Notes: generated by a model from the letters alone, not told the origin. A stretch of DNA of 64,000 nucleotides from a bacterium (GCA_022072165.1 JAJVIF010000001.1:310001-374000); one strand, 5' to 3'; shown: positions 1,955 through 42,470, numbered from the stretch's first letter. Numbers and translations: made by a program.

Positions 1955-2980
1955 ATGGCCACGACTCGCACCGCCCCGGCTCCCGCCCCCAGTCCGCTCC
2001 CTGTCGCTGAGCGCGAGGCGTCGCCCTGTCTCGACATCTCGGTCGTCATTCCGCTGCGCAACGAAGAGGGGTCGCTCCGGGAATTGCATCGGCAGCTCAG
2101 CGAGGTCCTCGGAGCGTCGGGGCTCACATTCGAGCTGCTCTTCATTGATGACGGGTCCGACGACGGTAGCGACACCATCCTGCGGGATTTGCACCGTACC
2201 GATGACCGGGTCACCGTCGTGACCCTGCGTCGTAACTTCGGCAAAGCGCAGGCTCTGGCGACCGGCTTTGATCTGGCTCGCGGACGCATCATCCTGACCA
2301 TCGATGCGGACCTGCAGGACGATCCTCACGAAATCCCTGAGTTCCTGAAGACCCTGGACACCGGTTACGACCTCGTGGTGGGCTGGAAACGCCGTCGCCG
2401 CGACCGGGTCACCCGGGTCCTGGCGAGCCGGGTGTTTAACCTCGTGAACCGGGTCTGCTTTGGGTTGCCTTTGCACGACATGAACTGCGGCTTTAAGGCC
2501 ATCCGACGGGAGGTCTTAGGCGAACTGGGGCTCTACGGCGAGTTGCATCGGTACATCCCCATCTATGCGCACGCCCGGGGCTTTCGGGTCACGGAGATCC
2601 CGGTCCTGCATCATCCGCGGAAGCACGGACGCAGCAAGTACGGACTGGAGCGGTACCTCCGCGGATTCTTCGACTTCCTCACCAGTCTGCTCCTGACCCG
2701 CTTCGCGAAGCGGCCGCTGCACTTTTTTGGCGGCGTGGGGTTCACCGTAGGGACCATCGGGCTCGCGATCTGTATCGTGCTGACCCTGCAATGGCTCCGG
2801 GGCAACACCGCGCTGTCCGAGCGCCCGCTGCTCATCCTTGGGGTGATGCTCATCATTCTGGGGGTCCAGACCATCTCCATCGGACTGGTCGGGGAAATGC
2901 TGATTCATCGCGAAGAAACCCGCAGCACTCAGGGCCAGCATCCGATCCGGGCGTTGCTGCGCCGGGCCGCTGTCAGCTGA
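1955..2980 (+). CDS. GT2 family polyprenyl-phosphate glycosyltransferase (ArnC/GtrB/DPM-like)
   Basis: Predicted to transfer a sugar from a nucleotide donor to a polyprenyl phosphate at the inner face of the cytoplasmic membrane. Of 341 residues, 28-245 form the GT-A domain: the VVIP strand at 30-33, IDDGSDDGS at 64-72, and the donor/metal motif DADLQDDP at 117-124. A charged linker is followed by two membrane segments (about 256-281 and 291-314), the usual ArnC/GtrB arrangement. The N-terminal 25 residues are a Pro/Ala-rich extension. It is followed 4 nt later by a second glycosyltransferase, so it heads a polysaccharide operon of four genes. The acceptor and sugar cannot be read from sequence. 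The family call is firm; substrate specificity is unknown. Confidence 0.9.
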   Translation: MATTRTAPAPAPSPLPVAEREASPCLDISVVIPLRNEEGSLRELHRQLSEVLGASGLTFELLFIDDGSDDGSDTILRDLHRTDDRVTVVTLRRNFGKAQALATGFDLARGRIILTIDADLQDDPHEIPEFLKTLDTGYDLVVGWKRRRRDRVTRVLASRVFNLVNRVCFGLPLHDMNCGFKAIRREVLGELGLYGELHRYIPIYAHARGFRVTEIPVLHHPRKHGRSKYGLERYLRGFFDFLTSLLLTRFAKRPLHFFGGVGFTVGTIGLAICIVLTLQWLRGNTALSERPLLILGVMLIILGVQTISIGLVGEMLIHREETRSTQGQHPIRALLRRAAVS

Positions 2981-2984
2981 CAAC

Positions 2985-3830
2985 GTGGCTGCTGCACCGC
3001 TCCCCCTCGCGATATGCCTCGTTACCTGGAATCACTGGGCAGACACCGCCGAGTGTCTCGCTTCCCTAAAGGCCGCAGATTGCGATCCTCCCCCTGAGGT
3101 TTGGGTGGTCGACAACCAGTCTGCCGATGACACAGTTGAGCGCATCCGCCACGAATTTCCTGACATCCGACTTCTGGAGAACGCCTGGAACGCCGGATTT
3201 GCGGTCGCCATGAATCAGGCCCTGGGTGCGGTGCTGGCAGCGACCCCAGCTGACCAGGACCGGCTGATCCTGTTGTTAAACAACGACACCCTGCTCGCCA
3301 CCTCCTGCCTGACCCAACTCACCACCGGGTTGGAATCGCAGCCCGTCGCCGGGATCGCAGCCCCCACGATCTACTACCACGCATCCCCGGAACAGGTCTG
3401 GTATGCCGGCGGGGGCCTTGATTCGGTGCGCTGTCGCGCCTGGCACGAGGGGCTCCGGACAGTCGCAGCACCGTCAGGGCCACCGACACCTACGGGCTAT
3501 GCCACCGGGTGTGCACTCCTGGTGCGGGCCAGCGTCCTGCGCCAGGTGGGGCTCCTCGATGAGGGGTACTTCATGTACTGGGAGGATGCCGATCTCTGCT
3601 GTCGCGCCAGAGCGGCAGGCTGGGAAGTCCTGTGGATTCCCGAGGCCCGTCTCTGGCACAAAGTCTCCACCTCCACGGGTGGCAACCTGGCTCCACGGAA
3701 ACTCTGGCGAAAGTTCGCCAGTGGCTGGCGATTCTGGTCGCGATGGCATGAGCGTCCCCTCTGGCCCCTCGCGTACCTGCAGACTTCGTGGCAGGACTTC
3801 CAGCGTGCGCGACAGGCGACCGCAGGATGA
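2985..3830 (+). CDS. GT2 family glycosyltransferase (rhamnosyltransferase-like)
   Basis: A cytosolic GT-A glycosyltransferase of 281 residues that should add a sugar to a growing glycan. The start is GTG 2985, only 4 nt after the previous stop, giving an N-terminus that runs straight into the first beta strand (AICLVTWN). Visible motifs are VVDNQSADDT (about 39-48), LLNNDTLL in the metal-binding position, the C-terminal acceptor-side motif YWEDADLCCRARAAGW, and WHKVS near the end. These are typical of WbbL/rhamnosyltransferase-type GT2 enzymes. It is coupled to the following GT-B gene with a 4-nt gap. The donor and acceptor are not known. Confidence 0.88.
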   Translation: MAAAPLPLAICLVTWNHWADTAECLASLKAADCDPPPEVWVVDNQSADDTVERIRHEFPDIRLLENAWNAGFAVAMNQALGAVLAATPADQDRLILLLNNDTLLATSCLTQLTTGLESQPVAGIAAPTIYYHASPEQVWYAGGGLDSVRCRAWHEGLRTVAAPSGPPTPTGYATGCALLVRASVLRQVGLLDEGYFMYWEDADLCCRARAAGWEVLWIPEARLWHKVSTSTGGNLAPRKLWRKFASGWRFWSRWHERPLWPLAYLQTSWQDFQRARQATAG

Positions 3831-3834
3831 CCCC

Positions 3835-5193
3835 ATGACCGCACCGCTCAACGTGCTCCTCGTGACCTATGCCTTCCCACCCCGGGGGGGAGTCGCGGTT
3901 CAGCGGGTCCTCTCCTGGGCGCGGCACCTGCCAGCGCATGGCATTCGGCTTACGGTCCTGACGGCCACGCCGCCGCTGGGAACCGTTCAGGCCGACACGT
4001 CCCTGCTGACGGAGGTACCGGACGACGTACGGGTTATCCGGACCCCATCGCTGGAGCCCTACCGGCTCTACCGCGCGCTGGGAGGGAAGCGAGCCCAGGA
4101 TGATCCTCGTCAGCGCGCGACACAAGTTGCAGGATCGAGACAACAAGGGGGAGTAGGGGAGCGAATCTATCGCTGGGTGCAGGAGCGCTGGCTGGTCCCG
4201 GACCCGAAAATCGGATGGTTCCCCTTCGCGCTGGAAGCCGCAAGGGGACTGCAAGAGGAAGGCTATCGCCCCGATGTCGTTCTTGCTACGCAGCCGCCGG
4301 CGACTGCCCTGGTGATCGGTGATGCCCTCGCCCAGCGCTGGAAGGCGCCCCTGGTGGTGGACTACCGGGACCCCTGGAACAGTGGGTACTACCCGCTGGA
4401 TCGACCACCAGCTGTCGCGGACCGGGAGATCGCCCTGGAGCGCCGGGTGCTCCAGCGTGCAGCTGCGGTCGTGACGGTCTCCGCCAGCTTCGCCGAAAAG
4501 CTTTCTAGATTAGTACAAGATGATTCAGGTTTAATGGAGAAACTGGCGCTTATTGAGAACGGTTATGATCCTATTTTTGGTGAAAACATAGAGTCAATTG
4601 GGGAAAACAGGCCAGTGCTCCTACACGCTGGATCGCTCTATGCCCAGCGTTCCCCGGAGCCCTTCTTCGCTGCCCTGCGTGCACTGACAACCGAGGATCC
4701 TGCCCTGACCGCTGACTGGACCCTGCGGCTGCAAGGGAATGTCGCGCCGGATTATCTTCGCGATGCCGAGGCGACTGGTGTCCGCGTGCAATTCGACGGC
4801 TTCGTGAGCCATCGCGATGCCCTCCTGGCGCAGCGGCAGGCTGAGATTCTGCTCCTTTTTACCGAGGGGATGCTCACCGCCAAGGTCTACGAGTATCTGG
4901 CAGCGCGCCGACCGATCCTCGCCATCGGTCCTGCGCCAGATCTGGACGCGCTCCTGCAGTCCTGGGGAGCTGGTCGCTGTTACGACCCTGCAGACAATAA
5001 GGGGATCCGGGACGCCCTCAAAACGCTGATGCAGCACCGAAATGCGACGGGGCAGACAGCTCCGCTCTCGCTCCACAAAGACCTCGCCACGATTCAACGG
5101 TCGGCATTAGCGGGCGATCTCGCCAGACTCCTCTACCGGGTGGCCGGCCGGCCAGCACCGGTGCACACGTATACTCCCTCATCCCATGCCTGA
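3835..5193 (+). CDS. GT-B glycosyltransferase (GT4-like)
   Basis: A retaining-type glycosyltransferase of 452 residues. The frame is open further upstream, but the N-terminal fold begins at ATG 3835 (VLLVTYAFPPRGGVAVQR, the Gly-rich loop of GT4 enzymes), directly after the stop of the preceding gene, so I chose that start. The N-terminal domain ends near residue 220. The C-terminal domain begins at LLHAGSLY and includes the FDGFVSH and LLLFTEGMLTAKVYEYLAAR segments, the donor-binding E-x7-E region of the family. Residues about 223-260, at the junction of the two Rossmann domains, are encoded by an AT-rich stretch unlike the rest of the gene. The gene overlaps the downstream flippase by 8 bp, so it is translationally coupled to export. 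Confidence 0.88.
   Translation: MTAPLNVLLVTYAFPPRGGVAVQRVLSWARHLPAHGIRLTVLTATPPLGTVQADTSLLTEVPDDVRVIRTPSLEPYRLYRALGGKRAQDDPRQRATQVAGSRQQGGVGERIYRWVQERWLVPDPKIGWFPFALEAARGLQEEGYRPDVVLATQPPATALVIGDALAQRWKAPLVVDYRDPWNSGYYPLDRPPAVADREIALERRVLQRAAAVVTVSASFAEKLSRLVQDDSGLMEKLALIENGYDPIFGENIESIGENRPVLLHAGSLYAQRSPEPFFAALRALTTEDPALTADWTLRLQGNVAPDYLRDAEATGVRVQFDGFVSHRDALLAQRQAEILLLFTEGMLTAKVYEYLAARRPILAIGPAPDLDALLQSWGAGRCYDPADNKGIRDALKTLMQHRNATGQTAPLSLHKDLATIQRSALAGDLARLLYRVAGRPAPVHTYTPSSHA
4501..4615 (+). other. AT-rich patch inside the GT-B gene
   Basis: For about 115 bp the sequence changes from strongly GC-rich to AT-rich, with codons such as AGA, TTA, GTA, TCA, GGT and ATA that are rare on either side. 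The reading frame is intact and the encoded residues (ENGYDPIFGEN among them) fit the GT-B fold. It may be a short recombined segment or a local composition fluctuation. The edges are approximate. Confidence 0.6.
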
Positions 5194-7603
5194 ACCCCCC
5201 GTCACGACAGGGGGAGACCCGGAGTCCCATCGCGAGGACCCGGCGTCTCAGACTGCTCCTGCTCCGGACTCCACATCGCCGTCGAACGCCGCCGCCGGTG
5301 ACCCGGGGATCGGGATGGTGCGGGATTCTGTCCAGACCTTTCTCGCGCAGCTGGTTTCCATCGTCGTTGCGATCGTCTCCTCCGTCCTGCTTGGGCGGAC
5401 CCTCCTTCCCACCGGAAAAGGACTCTTTTCCATCCTCATTCTGATTCCCAAGAGTGCCTGGACCTTCGGCACGCTGGGTCTCGATCAGGTCAACACCGTC
5501 TACGCCGGCCGCGACCCGGAGCGTCGGCATGAACTCGCCACGACCAGCCTGTTTCTCGGCATGGCGATTTCGATTCTTGCCTGTCTGCTGGTGGCGATTT
5601 TCCTCTACTGGCCCGGACGCGGCGCGGCCAGGGTCGACATCCAGCCTGGGGATTTCCTGGTCGCAATCGATGGCGTACCGGTCGCGCCAGGCTCTCTCGA
5701 ACCCCTGGCCTACACCCCCTTTGGCCGGGAGGTACCGGTCACGATCTGGCGGCAGGGGACCTTGCTGGAGCGGAGCATCCCGGCTGAAGCGGTTGATGGA
5801 CCATTCGCCATCGAGCAGGAGTTCCGGCTCTCGGCCCTGAATACCTGGCGGTTTGGCCTGACCGTCAACCCGCTCTTTAGCCAGCAATACTGGGTTCCCG
5901 CGCTGAATGCCGGACTGGTGCCTTTGACTCAGGAGCACTGGGATGAACTCGCAGCCCGCCGCGAGGCCGGGCTCCTGCCATCGGACATCCCGTTCCCTGA
6001 TCCGCAGCCCGCCTATCTGGTGGGTGATGTCGGCGAAAGTGGGCGGCTGGAACGCCTCCGCGGCGAAAGACCGTCCGCCACTGACCTGCGTCGGGGCGAT
6101 GTCATCCTCGCCATGAACGGCGCACCCCTGCGACCCGTGCTGATGGATGTCGCGCCGGAAGTGCCTCGTGGTGGGTCGCTGACATTGACCGTGTTTCGGC
6201 AGGGAGCATCGGTGGACATCACGGTGACTCCTGAAGCTACCGCAGGCTCCCCGGAACCACGGGGACTGCAACTTTCGCAGCCCGGACTCCGGGAATTGGG
6301 CCTGTTGAAAAATCTGCACTGGCAGGAGCAGCAGTACTTTCCAGCAAGCGGCATCGCGGTGGCGTTTATGACCCCGGATCGACAGCAGGATCTGCGTTTG
6401 CGGGCTGGACTTCCCGGGGTCTTCGCGGTCGGCACGACAGTCCCGGATGGCCCCGCCGCCCTGGTCTGCCAGGTGGATTACCCCTGGTTGCGGCGGTGGT
6501 CCCAGGACCTGCCCCGCAATCTTTTCATGCTGACCATGCTCTTTTTTCCGCTCACCGCTGCGGCGTACCTTATGGACAGCATCCTGTATGGCCTCAATCT
6601 GATTCGCCTGCGCAATCAGAAAGCGGTCATCACCAACATCGTGCTGGCGCTGCTCTACTTTTTCGGGCTCTATCTCTATGGTCATCAGCATCTCGCCCTT
6701 ACCCCCCGGAGCGCGGAGGGGCTGCTCCAGCTCATTGAGATTGCAGTCTGGATCACCCTGATTCATGGAGCGTTCATCGCGCTCTACTCCTGGTACCTCA
6801 TCGCCCCCCGGGCGAAATTTGCCCGTAAGTTTCTCAATCTGCCCTACGTCTTCGACTGCTTCCGGCACATCGGCTGGCAGTCCTATGTCGCCAACTCGGC
6901 GTCGTACCTCTTTTACGACGTCGACATCTTCATCATCACGTCCATCATCGCGCACGGCACTACGACCCTGACGCTCGACAATCTGGGGAACTACACGCAG
7001 GCGACCAACATCGTGGAGCGGGTCTGGATTGTCCCCGGGGCCATCGCCACCGCATTGCTCCCGAAGCTCACAAACTTTGGAGTGGCGAAGGCGGGGGAAC
7101 TGACACCCAAGGGGATCCGCCACACACTGATTCTCACCATCGCAATTCTGGTTCCCCTCTGTATCGTGATGCCGTGGCTGATCCCGGTGCTCTGGGGACC
7201 GGAGTTCCTGCCGACTTTGAGCCCGTTCTATCTGTTGGCTCCTGGCATCCTGCTCTTCTCGTTGAGCAAGGTCTACTCGGCACACTTACTCGGCATCGCC
7301 AAGCCGGTGTACGCCATGTGGTACTCGATCCTGGCAGTCATCGTGAACGTGGTGATGAACTACCTGCTCATCCCGCAGGAAGCCATCGTCATGGGCGTCG
7401 CGATTGGTGGGATCAACGGCGCGGCGATCGCCTCGACTGTCGCGTATTCTCTGCATTCGTTTCTCATGCTCTCGGCGTACTGCAAAGAAGCACAGACCAC
7501 ACCAGCGCAAATCTTCCGATTCACCAAAGATGACTGGTACCTCTATGTACGCGGGGCGCAGGCTGGCATCAGCATTGTCCGGAAGCTCCTGCGATGGTCC
7601 TAA
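5186..7603 (+). CDS. Wzx/MATE-type polysaccharide flippase with large PDZ-containing insert
   Basis: An 805-residue integral membrane protein, about 350 residues longer than ordinary Wzx flippases. A disordered N-terminus (1-45) precedes membrane segments 1-3 (about 50-70, 79-100, 120-142). Residues about 145-440 are soluble and hold PDZ-like modules: one around 150-200 with the carboxylate-loop-following motif DIQPGDFLVAIDGVPV, and one around 280-350 with DLRRGDVILAMNGAPL followed by SLTLTVFRQG. Residues 360-425 may hold a third, degenerate one. Membrane segments resume at 443 and continue to the end as in polysaccharide transport proteins. With a cytosolic N-terminus the insert would face outwards, in the loop between segments 3 and 4. 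Its neighbours are glycosyltransferases, which supports a role in lipid-linked glycan export. The role of the PDZ part is unknown. Confidence 0.85.
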   Translation: MPEPPVTTGGDPESHREDPASQTAPAPDSTSPSNAAAGDPGIGMVRDSVQTFLAQLVSIVVAIVSSVLLGRTLLPTGKGLFSILILIPKSAWTFGTLGLDQVNTVYAGRDPERRHELATTSLFLGMAISILACLLVAIFLYWPGRGAARVDIQPGDFLVAIDGVPVAPGSLEPLAYTPFGREVPVTIWRQGTLLERSIPAEAVDGPFAIEQEFRLSALNTWRFGLTVNPLFSQQYWVPALNAGLVPLTQEHWDELAARREAGLLPSDIPFPDPQPAYLVGDVGESGRLERLRGERPSATDLRRGDVILAMNGAPLRPVLMDVAPEVPRGGSLTLTVFRQGASVDITVTPEATAGSPEPRGLQLSQPGLRELGLLKNLHWQEQQYFPASGIAVAFMTPDRQQDLRLRAGLPGVFAVGTTVPDGPAALVCQVDYPWLRRWSQDLPRNLFMLTMLFFPLTAAAYLMDSILYGLNLIRLRNQKAVITNIVLALLYFFGLYLYGHQHLALTPRSAEGLLQLIEIAVWITLIHGAFIALYSWYLIAPRAKFARKFLNLPYVFDCFRHIGWQSYVANSASYLFYDVDIFIITSIIAHGTTTLTLDNLGNYTQATNIVERVWIVPGAIATALLPKLTNFGVAKAGELTPKGIRHTLILTIAILVPLCIVMPWLIPVLWGPEFLPTLSPFYLLAPGILLFSLSKVYSAHLLGIAKPVYAMWYSILAVIVNVVMNYLLIPQEAIVMGVAIGGINGAAIASTVAYSLHSFLMLSAYCKEAQTTPAQIFRFTKDDWYLYVRGAQAGISIVRKLLRWS

Positions 7604-8613
7604 GTCGGAACAGGAAGCTCAGCCGGGCTGACTGGCCGCACTACGGGCTTCCCGTCCGCTGACAGTTCTGACCCCATCACAAATTCCCGATTGGCCATTA
7701 GCCCGGTTCGGATGGGATGCTGGCTCGCGCCAATCCGGGCCAGCTTGCCAAACCGCAGGACCCCCGCCTTGATGCGGAGCGTGGCGTCGAGGGAGCGAAA
7801 GGTGGAACGGGCCGCCCGGACTCCATAATGCTTTGCCAGATACTGGAAGGCTGACCGGAAAAAGCGCTCATGCACCACGATCTGCGCGGCTTCATCGTTG
7901 CCCGATGAGCCGCCCCCTTCGTGCATCGCCACAATGTCAGGATGCACCATCACTTTCCAGTGGGTTTGATGACACCGGGTTGCCCAGTCGGTCTCCTCGA
8001 AGTACAGAAAGAAGCGTTCATCAAACGGTCCCACCTCCTCCCACGCGGACCGTCGCAAGAACCACATCGCTCCACAGGGATAGCCCACCTCGAAGGGCTG
8101 GTCCGTACCAGGAGCCAGGCCTCGACCCAGATCCCAGGCCGGGTTGGCCAAAAGACGCCGGAGTCCGGAGTAGGCGAACCAGAGTTTGAACGGGGACGGC
8201 AGAGCCCCGTAGACCAGCTCGGAGGTACCGCGTGGATTCAGGAGATTGCCCCCGACCAGTCCGACCTCCGGAGTGGCATCCAGATACGCGCAGGCGCGTT
8301 GCAATGTTTCGGGTCGCAGCTCCAAATCCGGGTTGAGTATCCCCAGGTAGTCGCCGCCGACATTCCGGGCGATGGTATTGACCCCCCCGGCATACCCCAC
8401 GTTGTCGGGGCGGGCGATGAGCCGGAAAGGAGCCCCCGGCCAGCGTTCTGCCAGATAGGCTGCCGTGCCATCTGGCGAAGCGTTATCTACCACCACCAGA
8501 TCCACGCCCGGCTCCGCTTCCATCGCCCGGAAGACCGATTCCAGACAGCGATCAATGTGTCGCCGGGAGTTGTACGTGATGATCCCCAGCCCAAGCCGGG
8601 TGTTGCTGTTCAC
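7600..8613 (-). CDS. GT2 family glycosyltransferase
   Basis: A soluble GT-A glycosyltransferase of 337 residues: LGLGIITYNSRRHIDRCLES at the N-terminus, VVVDNASPDGT (about 40-50), NPDLELRP in the metal-binding position, and YFEETDWATRCHQ as the C-terminal acceptor-side motif. This is the rhamnosyltransferase-like layout also seen at 2985-3830. It is the last gene of the minus-strand der-plsY-gpsA group, 7 nt after gpsA, and its end overlaps the end of the flippase gene by 4 bp on the opposite strand. It probably serves the same surface glycan as the genes at 1955-7603. Substrates are unknown. Confidence 0.88.
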   Translation of the reverse strand: MNSNTRLGLGIITYNSRRHIDRCLESVFRAMEAEPGVDLVVVDNASPDGTAAYLAERWPGAPFRLIARPDNVGYAGGVNTIARNVGGDYLGILNPDLELRPETLQRACAYLDATPEVGLVGGNLLNPRGTSELVYGALPSPFKLWFAYSGLRRLLANPAWDLGRGLAPGTDQPFEVGYPCGAMWFLRRSAWEEVGPFDERFFLYFEETDWATRCHQTHWKVMVHPDIVAMHEGGGSSGNDEAAQIVVHERFFRSAFQYLAKHYGVRAARSTFRSLDATLRIKAGVLRFGKLARIGASQHPIRTGLMANREFVMGSELSADGKPVVRPVSPAELPVPT

Positions 8614-12003: not shown

Positions 12004-13596
12004 ATGAGTCTGCGGACCGTCCAGACAGGTCACACCCGCCACCCGCTCTATCCCCTGTTCCTGGGCATTTTCGGAATTCTCTGTGTGATCGCAGGCGTCA
12101 TCTTCGCCGCGGAGTTCCGTCCACCCAATCCAGCTTATGCCGATGAGCCCGAAGCGCTGACCCTGCAGACTGCGGTCAACGTGCCCGGCAACTTCACCAA
12201 CAACCCCTTCCGGGAAGTCGTGCGGCAGGTGAAGCCCGCGGTCGTCAACATCGAAACGGACCGCAAAGTCGCTGCTGGCTCGCGCAATCAGAACCCCTTC
12301 GGCGACCTGCCGTTCCAGTTCGGACCGCCGCAGCGGCCGGAGGCGAAACCTTTTGGCGATGAGCCCGAAACTGTCCCGACCGGAGGTTCCGGCTTCATCG
12401 TGGACCCCAGGGGCTACATCATCACGAACAACCACGTCATCGAGGAAGCCGTTCGGATTCGGGTCACGCTGGATGATGGACGGGTCCTGGATGCCGATAT
12501 CGTCGGACGGGACCCCAACACTGATGTGGCGGTCCTGAAGCTAAAAAATCCCAAAGGGACCCTGCCGTTCCTGAAGCTGGGTGACAGCGATGTCGCCGAA
12601 ATCGGCGACTGGGTCATCGCAGTTGGCAGCCCCCTGGGGCTTTCGCAGTCAGTCACCGTCGGTGTGGTAAGCGCCAAGAACCGTAATTCGGTCAACATCC
12701 CTGGTGCGGGAGCCAAGTACAGCGATTTCATCCAGACCGATGCCGCGATTAACTTCGGCAACTCCGGCGGCCCGCTGCTGACCATCGATGGCACCGTACT
12801 CGGCATGAACACCGCCATCGCTGGCGGACAGGGTGTCAGCGGGATTGGATTCGCGGTCCCGGCGAACAAGATCAAGTTCGTCTACGACAACCTCATTCGC
12901 GAGGGAGTCGTTCGACGGGGCTACATCGGCCTGCTCGTCCAGCCAGTTTCGCTGAATGAAGCGAAAGCCAATGGCCTGGAAATCGCCAAGGGCGCAACCG
13001 TCGCCCGGGTCGAGCCCAAAGCCCCCGCTGAGCGAGCCGGCCTGGAATTCGGCGACCTCATCACCCACGTCGATGGCATCGAAGTCCAGAACAACCAGCA
13101 TCTGGTGAATCTCATCGCGGAAAAAGGCGTCGGAGTCACCATCAAGCTCAAAGTACTGCGCGATGGCAAGCCACTGGAAAAGACCCTCCGCACCGAACAG
13201 CGTCCCGATGAGCTGGATCAGGCGCAGCCCGCGTCTACCCCAGGCGCAGCCCCCGATGATGAGGCTCCCCCGCGGGAAGCCACCCTCATCCTCCAGGACC
13301 TCGGGCTCCAGCTGAGCGAGATCGATCCCGCCCTGAGTCGGCGACTCGATCTGCCCGCTGGTACGACCGGCGTCTATGTCGAGGCCGTGAAGCGAACCTC
13401 GCCTGCTCATGACGAAGGATTTGCGGAAGGCGACATCATCACCCACATCGACCGAACCGCTATCACTGGGCTCGCCGGTTTCGAGGACACCCTCAGGCAG
13501 GCGGGATCGGGGACTGGCTTTGCCCGACTTACCGTCAAGCGCCTGCTGCGGGGCGAGTGGGTAAGCTTCCCCTTCCGGCTCCCAGTCGAGCAGTAG
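12004..13596 (+). CDS. periplasmic serine protease DegP/HtrA (Do-like)
   Basis: An envelope quality-control protease/chaperone of 530 residues. A membrane anchor or signal (15-35) precedes a trypsin-like domain with the full triad: His144 (TNNHV), Asp174 (NTDVAVLK) and Ser254 (GNSGGPL). Two PDZ domains follow, at about 290-395 (GLEFGDLITHVDGIEVQ) and about 430-525 (GFAEGDIITHIDRTAI). The start ATG 12004 has a GAGGAG ribosome site. A Pro/Asp-rich linker separates the PDZ domains. A rho-independent terminator follows within 30 bp, so it is probably monocistronic. HtrA and DegQ cannot be told apart from sequence alone. Confidence 0.95.
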   Translation: MSLRTVQTGHTRHPLYPLFLGIFGILCVIAGVIFAAEFRPPNPAYADEPEALTLQTAVNVPGNFTNNPFREVVRQVKPAVVNIETDRKVAAGSRNQNPFGDLPFQFGPPQRPEAKPFGDEPETVPTGGSGFIVDPRGYIITNNHVIEEAVRIRVTLDDGRVLDADIVGRDPNTDVAVLKLKNPKGTLPFLKLGDSDVAEIGDWVIAVGSPLGLSQSVTVGVVSAKNRNSVNIPGAGAKYSDFIQTDAAINFGNSGGPLLTIDGTVLGMNTAIAGGQGVSGIGFAVPANKIKFVYDNLIREGVVRRGYIGLLVQPVSLNEAKANGLEIAKGATVARVEPKAPAERAGLEFGDLITHVDGIEVQNNQHLVNLIAEKGVGVTIKLKVLRDGKPLEKTLRTEQRPDELDQAQPASTPGAAPDDEAPPREATLILQDLGLQLSEIDPALSRRLDLPAGTTGVYVEAVKRTSPAHDEGFAEGDIITHIDRTAITGLAGFEDTLRQAGSGTGFARLTVKRLLRGEWVSFPFRLPVEQ

Positions 13597-39000: not shown

Positions 39001-39993
39001 CTACCGGTGGAGGTATGGATGCGATGCCGATCCGGCCGCAGTCAGACGCAGGCTCACCACCAGTTCCTCCCCGGACGTTGCCGTGACTGACGACATCTCC
39101 GGGAACCAGGATCCTGCCCCGGCCCAGACCGAGTAGCTCACACCGGCAGGGACCGCCGGGAAGGTCCAGCGTCCATCGCTACCTGTCACCCCGCCGATGC
39201 CGAAGCGATCGATCAGGGGTCGTTCAGGATCGCTCACCGCCAGGTGGACCGGGACGCCAGCCAGCAGCCGCCCATCCGTCGAGCGGACTTCCACGGTCAC
39301 CGTGCCGGCTGTCGCGCCCGTGGGAAGGAGTGATCGCAGCTCCACATCGCCGACTGTGAAGTCATCACCGATCTGCGGCAGCTCATCGAATGGGGATTCC
39401 ACCACGAAGGGCCGGAACCCTTCCTGCCCCACGATGAGCCGGACCGGATTCGCCGGAAGCCCAGTCAGTCGGAAGAAACCGTCCTCTTCCGGCGACCCTG
39501 CCGGAGCGGTGACTGCCCGCGCCAGCGCTCCATCGGCGTAGATGAGTAGGATTTCGCACTCATTCAGCCCGCGACCCTCGACATCTTTCACACGCCCTTC
39601 AAGCGCGTATGGCCCGCTTCCCAGGAGCGGCCAGGAGACCGTGACATCCGGCAGATTCGCTGCACCGATGCGTCCCAGGTCGATGTCCGGCTGCTCGTCC
39701 GGTTTCACTGTGATGGGCAGTGTCACCAGCGGCGTGTTCCATTTCGCTACCCGGATCGTGTAGGTCCCGGGGAGGATGCCAGGAATGGTGTAGCGTCCAG
39801 CTTTGTCGCTGACAGCAAACAAGTCTGAGGCGTTCAGGGAGACCCGGGCATACGGCACCGCGTTGACGTCGCCACCAATCGGTTGCCCCACGATGGCTGC
39901 TCCCGCCCCTTCGCCTGGTTGACCAGTCGTACAGCCGAGGCACAACGCCAGCGTCAGCCAGCAGAGGAAGGTCCGGATGGGTAGATATGTCAT
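39001..39993 (-). CDS. lipoprotein with three carboxypeptidase-regulatory-like beta-sandwich repeats
   Basis: A 330-residue lipoprotein (lipobox LCLGC, Cys21) made of about three tandem prealbumin-like/CarboxypepD_reg units at roughly 35-110, 128-200 and 232-310. Each has the family pattern of a small-residue strand, a polar turn, then SD-x-x-GRYTIPGILPGTYTI in the first, EEDGFFRLTGLPANPV in the second and TGSDGRWTFPAVPAGVSY in the third. Such domains are structural or ligand-binding and sit outside the membrane. ATG 39993 overlaps the TPR-CHAT stop (ATGA), so the two are translated together. The same fold is fused to the DNA-binding protein at 42585-43118. Confidence 0.82.
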   Translation of the reverse strand: MTYLPIRTFLCWLTLALCLGCTTGQPGEGAGAAIVGQPIGGDVNAVPYARVSLNASDLFAVSDKAGRYTIPGILPGTYTIRVAKWNTPLVTLPITVKPDEQPDIDLGRIGAANLPDVTVSWPLLGSGPYALEGRVKDVEGRGLNECEILLIYADGALARAVTAPAGSPEEDGFFRLTGLPANPVRLIVGQEGFRPFVVESPFDELPQIGDDFTVGDVELRSLLPTGATAGTVTVEVRSTDGRLLAGVPVHLAVSDPERPLIDRFGIGGVTGSDGRWTFPAVPAGVSYSVWAGAGSWFPEMSSVTATSGEELVVSLRLTAAGSASHPYLHR

Positions 39994-42470
39994 GACAAAC
40001 CTCTGACTTCCGGCATCGGACCGGTTGGGTGTGGCGAGGAGTGCGACTGTATGGTCAGCCGAAGTCTGGGAGTTCCCCAGGGCTGAAAGCCAGCCCAGAG
40101 ATAGGGATGCCGAGCGAAGCCTGCGCTCCGCAGCTCAAGGCACCCTGCCCGGACCCCTTCGGCCAGGGAACCCTCCAGCAGCAGGGTTTGATAGCACGAT
40201 GCCATAAAGAGCGCGGTGGCATCGTCGCGGACTTTCCAGCCTCCAGCGAGCATGGATCGCGTCCCGGTAGTCAGCAACGCCCGCAGGAAGCCCTCCACCA
40301 GCGATGCTGCTCCCTGTTGCAGACGAGCCGTTTCGCACGCCGCCAGGGTGACGAGTTCCAGGTGGTCGCCCTGCAGCCGACCAGCCAGAAAGTCATTGAC
40401 TGTGATCTGCTCAGTGCCTGTTTCAATGGTGCTGGCCAGTGGGTCAGTAGGGTCAAAAGTGCCGTGCCCTGCAAAATGCAGGATCCGGGCGGATGGGAGG
40501 ACTTCCTGGAGCCACGCGTGCACCTCGACTCCCGCAGGCGGACCGCTCACGACTCCCAGCGGCTGCAGAACATGGCTCAGAACTTCGAGTTCGCCCTGCA
40601 AATGGACCAGATCAGCAGCGTTTCCCGTCAGGAGGACCGCACGCGATGGAGCATCTGGCTGGTCCCGTTCCAGCCGACGTGGCTCCAGATGTGCGAAGTA
40701 GGGGACCAGCTGGATGGCACGCTGTTCGATGACCGGGGCTTGATCCGGACCCAGCAGCGCCAGCCAGGGGACCTCCAGCAACGGTCCATGCGGAGAAATG
40801 ATCCACGTACTCAGATCGCTCCAGTACGCCGGCAATCCTTCCAGCAGACCGTCGCTTAAAGGCACCAGCCAGTCGAGGACTGGCAGCGAAAGGGTCGACT
40901 GCTCCGCGACCGGTGTCTGCTCATACTGGTTGAGTTGATCGTTCCACTGACTCAGCAATGAAGTGAGCGCTGGGGGGGAGAGCCGCATCGTGTCGACCAC
41001 CACGCCCCGACTGGGGTGATAGGCGAAGCGGAAGATGCGCTTCTCAGCGACGAAGTAGTCCAGGAGTCCTTCCTGGGTGCCCAGGATGTCGTTCTCCCAC
41101 AGAACATTGAGCAGTTCGAGTCCCAGGTTGTGGGTGTAGGGGAGGCTCGGCAACGGCTCAGTCGGGAAGTCGCCGGGGAGTCCCGCGATCCATCCTGCCT
41201 GCTTGGCTTCCTGGGCCAGACTCCAGGCAAGCGCTGTGTCCTGCCGACTCAGCGCATTCTCAATGAGTGCCCCGTAGAGCCCGCGCTGCTGGACAAGAAA
41301 GCTCCGGCGTTCCTTTTCGCCCGTTAGCGACCCCTGCTGAGTCAGAAAACTATTGCGCGCCTGTTCCAGCAGTCGCCAGGCCCGGTCCATCGCTCCCCGC
41401 GCATGTTCAGTGAGAAAAATGCCGAGTCGCATCTGGGCTTTCCAAAGACGCTGGGGCAGCCGGTGCGACTCCGCCAGATCCAACGCTTGCTGATACTGTT
41501 CCAGGGCTTCCTGCCGCCATCGATCAGCTGCGATCTCGTCGCCAGCAGCCTGTGCCTTTTCGAGACGGGTTTCCGCCAGCGAGCCACGATTAGAGCAAAG
41601 GTATTGCTCTGCCACTGGATAGGGATGTCCCACCAGTAAGTCGCTGGCTGTCTGCAGGATCTTGTCAGCTTCATCGAAGCGGGACATTGCCTGGCAGATC
41701 GCGGCCATGTTGGAACAGGTCAACAGGCGGTTCAGGGAGGTCTCTCCCAGCTCGGCGTACCACTCCAGGGCCTTGTTGGTGAATTGCCAGGCCTCTTCGT
41801 AGCGTTTGAGCTCGAGGTAAATGAAACCGATGTTCTGCGCGACACTCGCCAGATGACGGACCCGCCCTAAGCGTTTGAAGCGCTGGAGCGCCTGCTGAAA
41901 AGATTCCGCCGCCGCGACATCGAGCCCCAGTTCCAGTTCGGTCAGCCCCTGGTTGTTCCAGATCGTCGCGACCTCTTCGTCCGTGCCCCCATACTGCGCC
42001 AGCGCTGTCTGGGCCGCCTCGAAAGCGGCCATCGCTGCTGGATAGTCGCCCCGCAGCCGCGCAATGAGACCCAAATACCCTGCAATCGGGGCTGACTTCC
42101 CGGGAATCTCGAGTGACTGGGCTTCCAGCAAAAGATCTTCAGCTCCCGCCAGTGCTGTTGGATCAGCCTGCAGCGACATCAGCAACAGACGCGCCCCGGT
42201 GATGCAGCTTGCTGCCCGGAGCTCCGCATGATTTTCTGTGACCTGATGGAGGGTGGACCAGAGTCGCTGCGCGAGGTCGCCCTCGCCGAGAATCGCGAGT
42301 GCCAGGACCCCGTGACAGGCTCCCGCAATGTCGCCCGGGTCCCGCAGCAAGGTGGCTTCCTGGATCAATGTCGCCCGACCAGCCGCATCCAGCCCGGCAA
42401 GCCGGGGGAGCCACTCGTCATAGGAGCCGGCGTGCCAGGGAATGGAGACCATGGTGGCTGGCGGATGCAT
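39990..42470 (-). CDS. TPR-CHAT caspase-like protease
   Basis: An 826-residue cytosolic protein. Residues about 30-420 are TPR-like helical repeats (for instance FQQALQRFKRLGRVRHLASVAQNIGFIYLELKRYEEAW split over neighbouring units); about 480-800 form a CHAT domain. The caspase-type dyad is intact: His669 in HFAGHG and Cys712 in LAACETA. CHAT proteases (separase, Craspase and gasdermin-type defence proteins) are usually activated by a partner and cut a specific target. No signal peptide is present. ATG 42470 has a GGGAGG ribosome site. It lies 114 bp downstream of the HTH/beta-sandwich gene and overlaps the following lipoprotein. Substrate unknown. Confidence 0.88.
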   Translation of the reverse strand: MHPPATMVSIPWHAGSYDEWLPRLAGLDAAGRATLIQEATLLRDPGDIAGACHGVLALAILGEGDLAQRLWSTLHQVTENHAELRAASCITGARLLLMSLQADPTALAGAEDLLLEAQSLEIPGKSAPIAGYLGLIARLRGDYPAAMAAFEAAQTALAQYGGTDEEVATIWNNQGLTELELGLDVAAAESFQQALQRFKRLGRVRHLASVAQNIGFIYLELKRYEEAWQFTNKALEWYAELGETSLNRLLTCSNMAAICQAMSRFDEADKILQTASDLLVGHPYPVAEQYLCSNRGSLAETRLEKAQAAGDEIAADRWRQEALEQYQQALDLAESHRLPQRLWKAQMRLGIFLTEHARGAMDRAWRLLEQARNSFLTQQGSLTGEKERRSFLVQQRGLYGALIENALSRQDTALAWSLAQEAKQAGWIAGLPGDFPTEPLPSLPYTHNLGLELLNVLWENDILGTQEGLLDYFVAEKRIFRFAYHPSRGVVVDTMRLSPPALTSLLSQWNDQLNQYEQTPVAEQSTLSLPVLDWLVPLSDGLLEGLPAYWSDLSTWIISPHGPLLEVPWLALLGPDQAPVIEQRAIQLVPYFAHLEPRRLERDQPDAPSRAVLLTGNAADLVHLQGELEVLSHVLQPLGVVSGPPAGVEVHAWLQEVLPSARILHFAGHGTFDPTDPLASTIETGTEQITVNDFLAGRLQGDHLELVTLAACETARLQQGAASLVEGFLRALLTTGTRSMLAGGWKVRDDATALFMASCYQTLLLEGSLAEGVRAGCLELRSAGFARHPYLWAGFQPWGTPRLRLTIQSHSSPHPTGPMPEVRGLS

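Follow-up and report, generated by a model that had tools for sequence, protein, structure and literature searches.

A Wzx-like flippase with a predicted PDZ pair inserted in its TM3-TM4 loop

The window analysed here is a stretch of bacterial DNA of 64,000 nucleotides (GCA_022072165.1, JAJVIF010000001.1:310001-374000), and one of its genes (5186-7603, plus strand) encodes an 805-residue protein, P0001, which is very probably a true flippase carrying two PDZ domains in one of its periplasmic loops. The best overall explanation, to which we assign a probability of about 0.5, is a Wzx-like flippase with an inserted HtrA/DegP-type PDZ pair, in which the terminal halves of the insert would pair to close a ring and the PDZ pair would act as a lid or docking site. 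Each component has known counterparts: flippases of the MOP superfamily, PDZ domains, and polytopic proteins that have permuted PDZ pairs in their loops. Flippase and PDZ insert in combination were found neither in the literature nor in the genomes searched. The gene is an intact open reading frame of 805 open codons and is single-copy in a 3.26-Mb genome (four contigs, 99.1% complete).

The membrane part and the site of the insert

Residues ~44-141 and ~436-792 of P0001 together make up one continuous MOP fold (Wzx/MurJ/MATE) of twelve transmembrane helices (TMs), for which twelve hydrophobic segments can be placed in the sequence. TM1-TM3 (residues 44-141; window 5315-5608, plus strand) are delimited by alignment to the orthologues L061-L063, by hydropathy, and by helices at residues 40-72, 75-109 and 111-141 in an AlphaFold2 (AF2) model, and TM4-TM12 (residues ~436-792; 6491-7561, plus strand) by 32-34% identity to orthologues that have no insert, a MATE-family match and structural alignment with VIA-align. 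Orthologues of the same class are 465-466 amino acids long and 28-34% identical to residues 44-139 and 433-792, the middle being skipped. The full-length AF2 model, which was built with three orthologues and used for the membrane part alone, has helices at 40-141 and 442-804 and is of moderate confidence, with a predicted local distance difference test score (pLDDT) of 55 overall and 53-89 per block in the membrane part. Foldseek returned 25 matches to the membrane part at E <= 0.001, all of them MurJ, WzxE or MATE proteins among the matches listed, and VIA-align gave Z scores of 28.5 to WzxE (9g9o; 401 residues, model residues 39-770), 25.4 to MurJ (6nc9), and up to 30.8 to MATE proteins, the alignments extending across the insert from model residue 36 to 771. 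PDZ chains are absent from the VIA-align list, but this is uninformative since the list was filled by flippase matches. The Pfam scan of P0001 found no flippase family in the flanks, and TIGR00797 (matE) scored 26.7 bits, under the family cut-off; the orthologue L061, to which P0001 is 32% identical, passes the Pfam MurJ family with 40.3 bits. On homology and modeling combined, the flanks are those of a MOP-superfamily flippase.

The soluble insert (residues ~142-435; 5609-6490, plus strand) occupies the loop between TM3 and TM4, its boundaries having been set by alignment with the orthologues that lack it, in which the same loop measures ~10-20 residues; almost no flippase residues would therefore have been lost at insertion. 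With the N-terminus inside, the cytoplasmic loops from TM2 on contain 3, 2, 4, 3, 1 and 7 lysine and arginine residues, and the short outside loops 1, 1, 0, 0 and 0. This distribution places the TM3-TM4 loop, and hence the insert, on the periplasmic side according to the positive-inside rule. A preliminary description of the window, made from its sequence, had proposed a Wzx/MATE-like protein interrupted at residues ~145-440 between the third and fourth membrane segments by a part lying outside the membrane. Fold, position and side are all upheld by these results, with the boundaries slightly shifted, and so is its statement that Wzx flippases have no such insert, as far as ordinary Wzx-type relatives are concerned. 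The search for homologues with the same insert, which it had suggested as a check, found none in the genomes covered.

Unlike P0001, the same-class Wzx-type orthologues and the other flippases returned contain neither PDZ domains nor any other insert of ~290 residues. None of the same-class orthologues has the insert, and none was seen in the flippases returned from 385 genomes (~260 families) and from 20 further genomes of one phylum with close homologues. In the collections searched, where the phylum of the source genome is represented by only three other genomes, it is carried by one genome alone. The longest reading frames with flippase matches were considered as other carriers and rejected, as none has a PDZ domain: L074 (894 amino acids) has a C-terminal glycosyltransferase fusion, and L075 (891) and L080-L084 (684, 648, 643, 603 and 580) arise by upstream in-frame read-through. 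L074 (G210:C80), from an unrelated genome, is an observation in its own right, a Wzx-like flippase apparently fused in one open frame to a C-terminal glycosyltransferase. A paralogous origin of the insert within its own genome was likewise rejected, there being no second DNA copy and no close protein. Another gene of the window, 4.4 kb downstream of the flippase (12004-13596, plus strand), does encode a serine protease of the HtrA/DegP type that has two PDZ domains of ordinary form; as a source of the insert it is ruled out by sequence, and its PDZ rows, when added to the alignment, were badly placed by MAFFT and not used. No relative of flippase or insert was found in viral contigs, plasmids gave only two weak matches, both to the membrane part, and the literature searched contained nothing on PDZ domains with Wzx or on a PDZ domain inserted into a transporter.

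PDZ domains and half-domains in the insert

Two PDZ cores are recognized in the insert above the Pfam cut-offs, by PDZ_6 (29.9 bits; cut-off 27) and by PDZ (26.4 bits; cut-off 23.2, two stretches), which establishes their PDZ character at the level of sequence. The two motifs singled out in the preliminary description, DIQPGDFLVAIDGVPV at residues ~151-166 and DLRRGDVILAMNGAPL at residues ~300-315, are present. Its count of at least two PDZ modules stands with respect to these cores, but not as two complete modules placed end to end, and it had missed that both ends of the insert lie within a PDZ domain and carry halves that complement each other. The assignment is based on sequence profiles because AF2 predictions of the insert are too poor, with a pLDDT of 38 for the insert alone (single sequence, not used) and, in blocks of 10 residues, of 27-54 in the full-length model.

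According to the profile matches, the insert starts with the second half of a PDZ domain and ends with a first half, and the two are complementary. The starting piece is the second half of PDZ-A (residues ~149-205, RVDIQPGDFLVAIDGVPV...IPAEA; 5630-5800, plus strand), which covers positions 11-54 of the PDZ_6 profile and positions ~32/39-91 of an HtrA-type PDZ hidden Markov model (HMM). At the other end, residues 389-425 (GIAVAFMTPDRQQDLRLRAGLPGVFAVGTTVPDGPAA; 6350-6460, plus strand) make up a PDZ first half that covers HMM positions 2-36. PDZ-B lies between them (residues ~222-354; 5849-6247, plus strand), with a second half that is clear from TDLRRGD (HMM positions 38-90, 25.9 bits), and its residues ~243-348 match the PDZ domain of a carboxy-terminal protease (L026) contiguously, with a domain E-value of 3.8e-6. 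Hydrophobic-Gly-hydrophobic strands, which may be relevant to the binding of C-terminal peptides, are present as FGL (from residue 222) and GIAV (from residue 389).

A PDZ profile built on 19 complete PDZ domains of the HtrA and related types detected two second halves in the intact insert, at ~144-201 (18.4 bits) and ~299-349 (23.9 bits), and, weakly, the first half at 389-425. With residues 389-425 joined ahead of 149-205, the same profile recognized a single domain over positions 2-91 of 94 with 34.5-35.4 bits, compared with 18.5 bits for residues 149-213 alone. The joined score was matched by 0 of 1000 shuffles of the first half (maximum 28.1) and 0 of 2091 natural non-PDZ windows (maximum 27.9), and the top-scoring partner among all windows of the insert was exactly the one starting at residue 389. 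When compared with PDB sequences by phmmer, the joined piece matched the DegP-like 22kg (E 1.7e-6) and AlgW (E 2.4e-4), each match including the stretch from residue 1 over the junction, and the PDZ-A region within the intact insert reached 0.34 at best. TIGR02037 (DegP_htrA_DO) also aligns to the joined piece, over positions 1 to 82, and matches PDZ-B as well.

Pairing of the terminal halves and possible roles

On the simplest reading, the insert is a permuted PDZ pair whose ends meet and which is clipped into the TM3-TM4 loop, and we infer with moderate confidence, from the profile scores, that the two terminal halves fold together as one PDZ domain. Provided that P0001 is a true flippase with a PDZ pair in the periplasm, we lean towards this ring pairing, which is favoured because the match of PDZ-B to L026 runs without a break through both of its own halves. 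An HtrA/DegP-type PDZ pair would have been inserted cleanly into the periplasmic loop in the source lineage, with the terminal halves pairing as PDZ-A and PDZ-B looped out between them. The pairing would bring the ends of the insert together, and the insert could for this reason be spliced into a short loop without forcing TM3 and TM4 apart.

Several points weigh against this. The insert has no homologue of the same arrangement that could provide covariation, and its models are of low confidence. The pairing with PDZ-A is not unique, as residues 389-425 also lift the second half of PDZ-B, from 28.3 to 38.0 bits. The first half of PDZ-B (RFGLTV...AYLVGDVGESG) is divergent, with long loops, and in trimmed form brought no significant gain, 82 of 1000 shuffles being equally good; it rests for this reason on the weaker evidence of the L026 match. 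Finally, the lid or docking function is putative.

The lift given to PDZ-B is the starting point of a different arrangement, which we consider doubtful, namely two permuted domains in tandem (residues 149-297 and 298-425), each contiguous and composed of a second half followed by a first half, with no closure of a ring. The order of half-domains, second-first-second-first, permits it, none of 1000 shuffles equalled the 38.0 bits, and there is a precedent in the permuted PDZ pair of RseP (Inaba et al. 2008, as cited in PMC4597795). It is opposed by the natural order of PDZ-B across the middle of the insert, as seen in its contiguous protease match, and by the gain on joining, 17 bits with PDZ-A versus 10 bits with PDZ-B, a comparison in which PDZ-A had more to gain, its whole first half being missing.

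An improbable alternative is that the insert is a slice of a longer PDZ array, i.e., a complete PDZ-B between two fragments that do not pair, which would make it a passive and partly disordered spacer. Proteins with multiple PDZ domains are common (L037 and L038 have three PDZ matches each), arbitrary cuts in one of them would produce a piece like this one, and occurrence in a single genome fits this origin. At both ends, however, the PDZ fold is cut in the same place, just past the SPAA/GPAA turn, and the pieces are complementary with neither overlap nor gap (model positions 2-36 and ~39-91), as a random slice rarely would be; the frame is intact and codon use normal. An assembly chimera or recent non-functional insertion, suggested by an insert found in one genome only and by a phylum with three other genomes in the collection, is unlikely, and has the least to recommend it: both junctions are in frame and inside one loop with hardly any flippase residues lost, the DNA of the insert occurs only once in the assembly, G+C content at third codon positions is 0.66-0.80 along the insert and 0.64-0.90 elsewhere in the gene, and the codon-usage score of the insert (0.184) falls among the values of 15 neighbouring genes (0.122-0.332) and exceeds those of the other frames and the antisense (0.047, -0.107, 0.111).

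Known systems offer two comparisons for the insert. The PDZ domains nearest in sequence to the composite PDZ-A are those of the periplasmic proteases HtrA, DegP, DegQ and AlgW; these have a trypsin-like protease domain, whereas none was found in P0001 by the Pfam scan. RseP and homologous site-2 proteases resemble P0001 in that a polytopic inner-membrane protein carries a PDZ pair on its periplasmic side (PMC4597795), and a permuted PDZ order, reported there for RseP from Inaba et al. 2008, is likewise proposed for the insert. RseP is a metalloprotease with four TMs, whereas the membrane part of P0001 has the MOP fold, and the point at which the first PDZ domain is cut differs between the two; the Pfam scan of P0001 gave no peptidase match, with no search aimed at protease motifs made. 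The likeness is thus one of analogous architecture, with no sign of common descent beyond the PDZ family. In RseP, the PDZ tandem covers the membrane core and filters substrates (PMC4597795).

A lid or docking role for the insert is suggested by analogy with RseP, the best functional analogue, and we give it somewhat less than an even chance against a passive spacer or another role. The PDZ pair would cover the mouth of the N-lobe on the periplasmic face, tethered there as a lid or as a docking site. It could bind a partner in the periplasm or inner membrane, such as a polymerase, ligase or protease, by its C-terminus or by an extended strand; docking of such enzymes and gating through C-termini had been suggested in the preliminary description. 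In this way the flipped glycan may be released in step with the next enzyme, or the outward-open state may be gated. A stronger form, which is speculative and on balance unlikely, has the ring-closed PDZ pair gate the flippase itself: TM3 and TM4 would each continue from one half of a single split PDZ domain, rocking of the flippase lobe would open or close its peptide groove, and binding of a partner tail would lock the transporter. If true, domain insertion would here have linked transport allosterically to a partner enzyme.

How Wzx flippases pass flipped glycans on to the polymerase or ligase in the periplasm is still poorly understood. A binding module that the flippase itself carries on this side would provide a handle on the step, as its ligand would identify the partner. 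The anatomy of P0001 furthermore indicates that a multi-domain insert can be tolerated in a short transporter loop when its end pieces are complementary domain halves, and, if this holds true, the insert could serve as a model for building sensors into transporters.

Flippase type, gene neighbourhood and further observations

The flippase gene closes a tightly packed run of four genes, GT2-GT2-GT4-flippase, and is followed by a convergent GT2 gene. The run begins with a GT2 glycosyltransferase with C-terminal hydrophobic segments (1955-2980, plus strand; PF00535, 109.7 bits), followed by a second GT2 enzyme (2985-3830, plus strand; PF00535/PF13632) and a GT4-type glycosyltransferase (3826-5193 with a provisional start, plus strand; PF13579/PF13439), which overlaps the flippase start by 8 bases. 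The GT4-flippase pair and a nearby GT2 gene recur around the orthologue without insert in L002/L061, the GT2 gene near the flippase of L061 being similar to the convergent one. The genome has a separate strong MurJ (G000:C1:568264-569580, 251.6 bits) and a further weak MurJ-like protein, and P0001 is not in the MurJ list; it was therefore rejected as the lipid II flippase of this genome, which fits a role with lipid-linked glycans. WzxE and MurJ, lipid-linked oligosaccharide flippases of the MOP superfamily, are like P0001 in their 12-TM fold and in having glycosyltransferase genes as context. A Wzx-like role in lipid-linked glycan export is the best assignment for P0001, drawn from the glycosyltransferase neighbours, the recurring GT4-flippase pair and the separate MurJ, and the substrate would be the lipid-linked glycan made by the adjacent enzymes. 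The glycosyltransferase operon and the export role that the preliminary description had linked to it agree with these results.

Two Wzy_C ligase/polymerase-type proteins are encoded in the genome; neither adjoins the flippase gene, and the C-termini of both are not obvious hydrophobic PDZ ligands.

Met44 (window 5315) aligns with the start of the orthologues that have no insert. Residues 1-43 (5186-5314), which are rich in Pro, Ser, Thr and Asp and absent from the orthologues, are either a real N-terminal cytoplasmic tail or an over-called start. The convergent GT2 gene (7600-8613, minus strand; PF00535, 73.2 bits) and the flippase gene overlap tail-to-tail in their stop codons by 4 bases (7600-7603). 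An antisense open frame of 755 codons (5018-7285, minus strand) covers most of the flippase gene, and is taken as an artefact of the G+C-rich sequence because its codon usage within the insert is poor. Further away in the window (39990-42470, minus strand), a protein of 826 amino acids resembles, by eye, tetratricopeptide (TPR) repeats with a CHAT-type peptidase domain after them.

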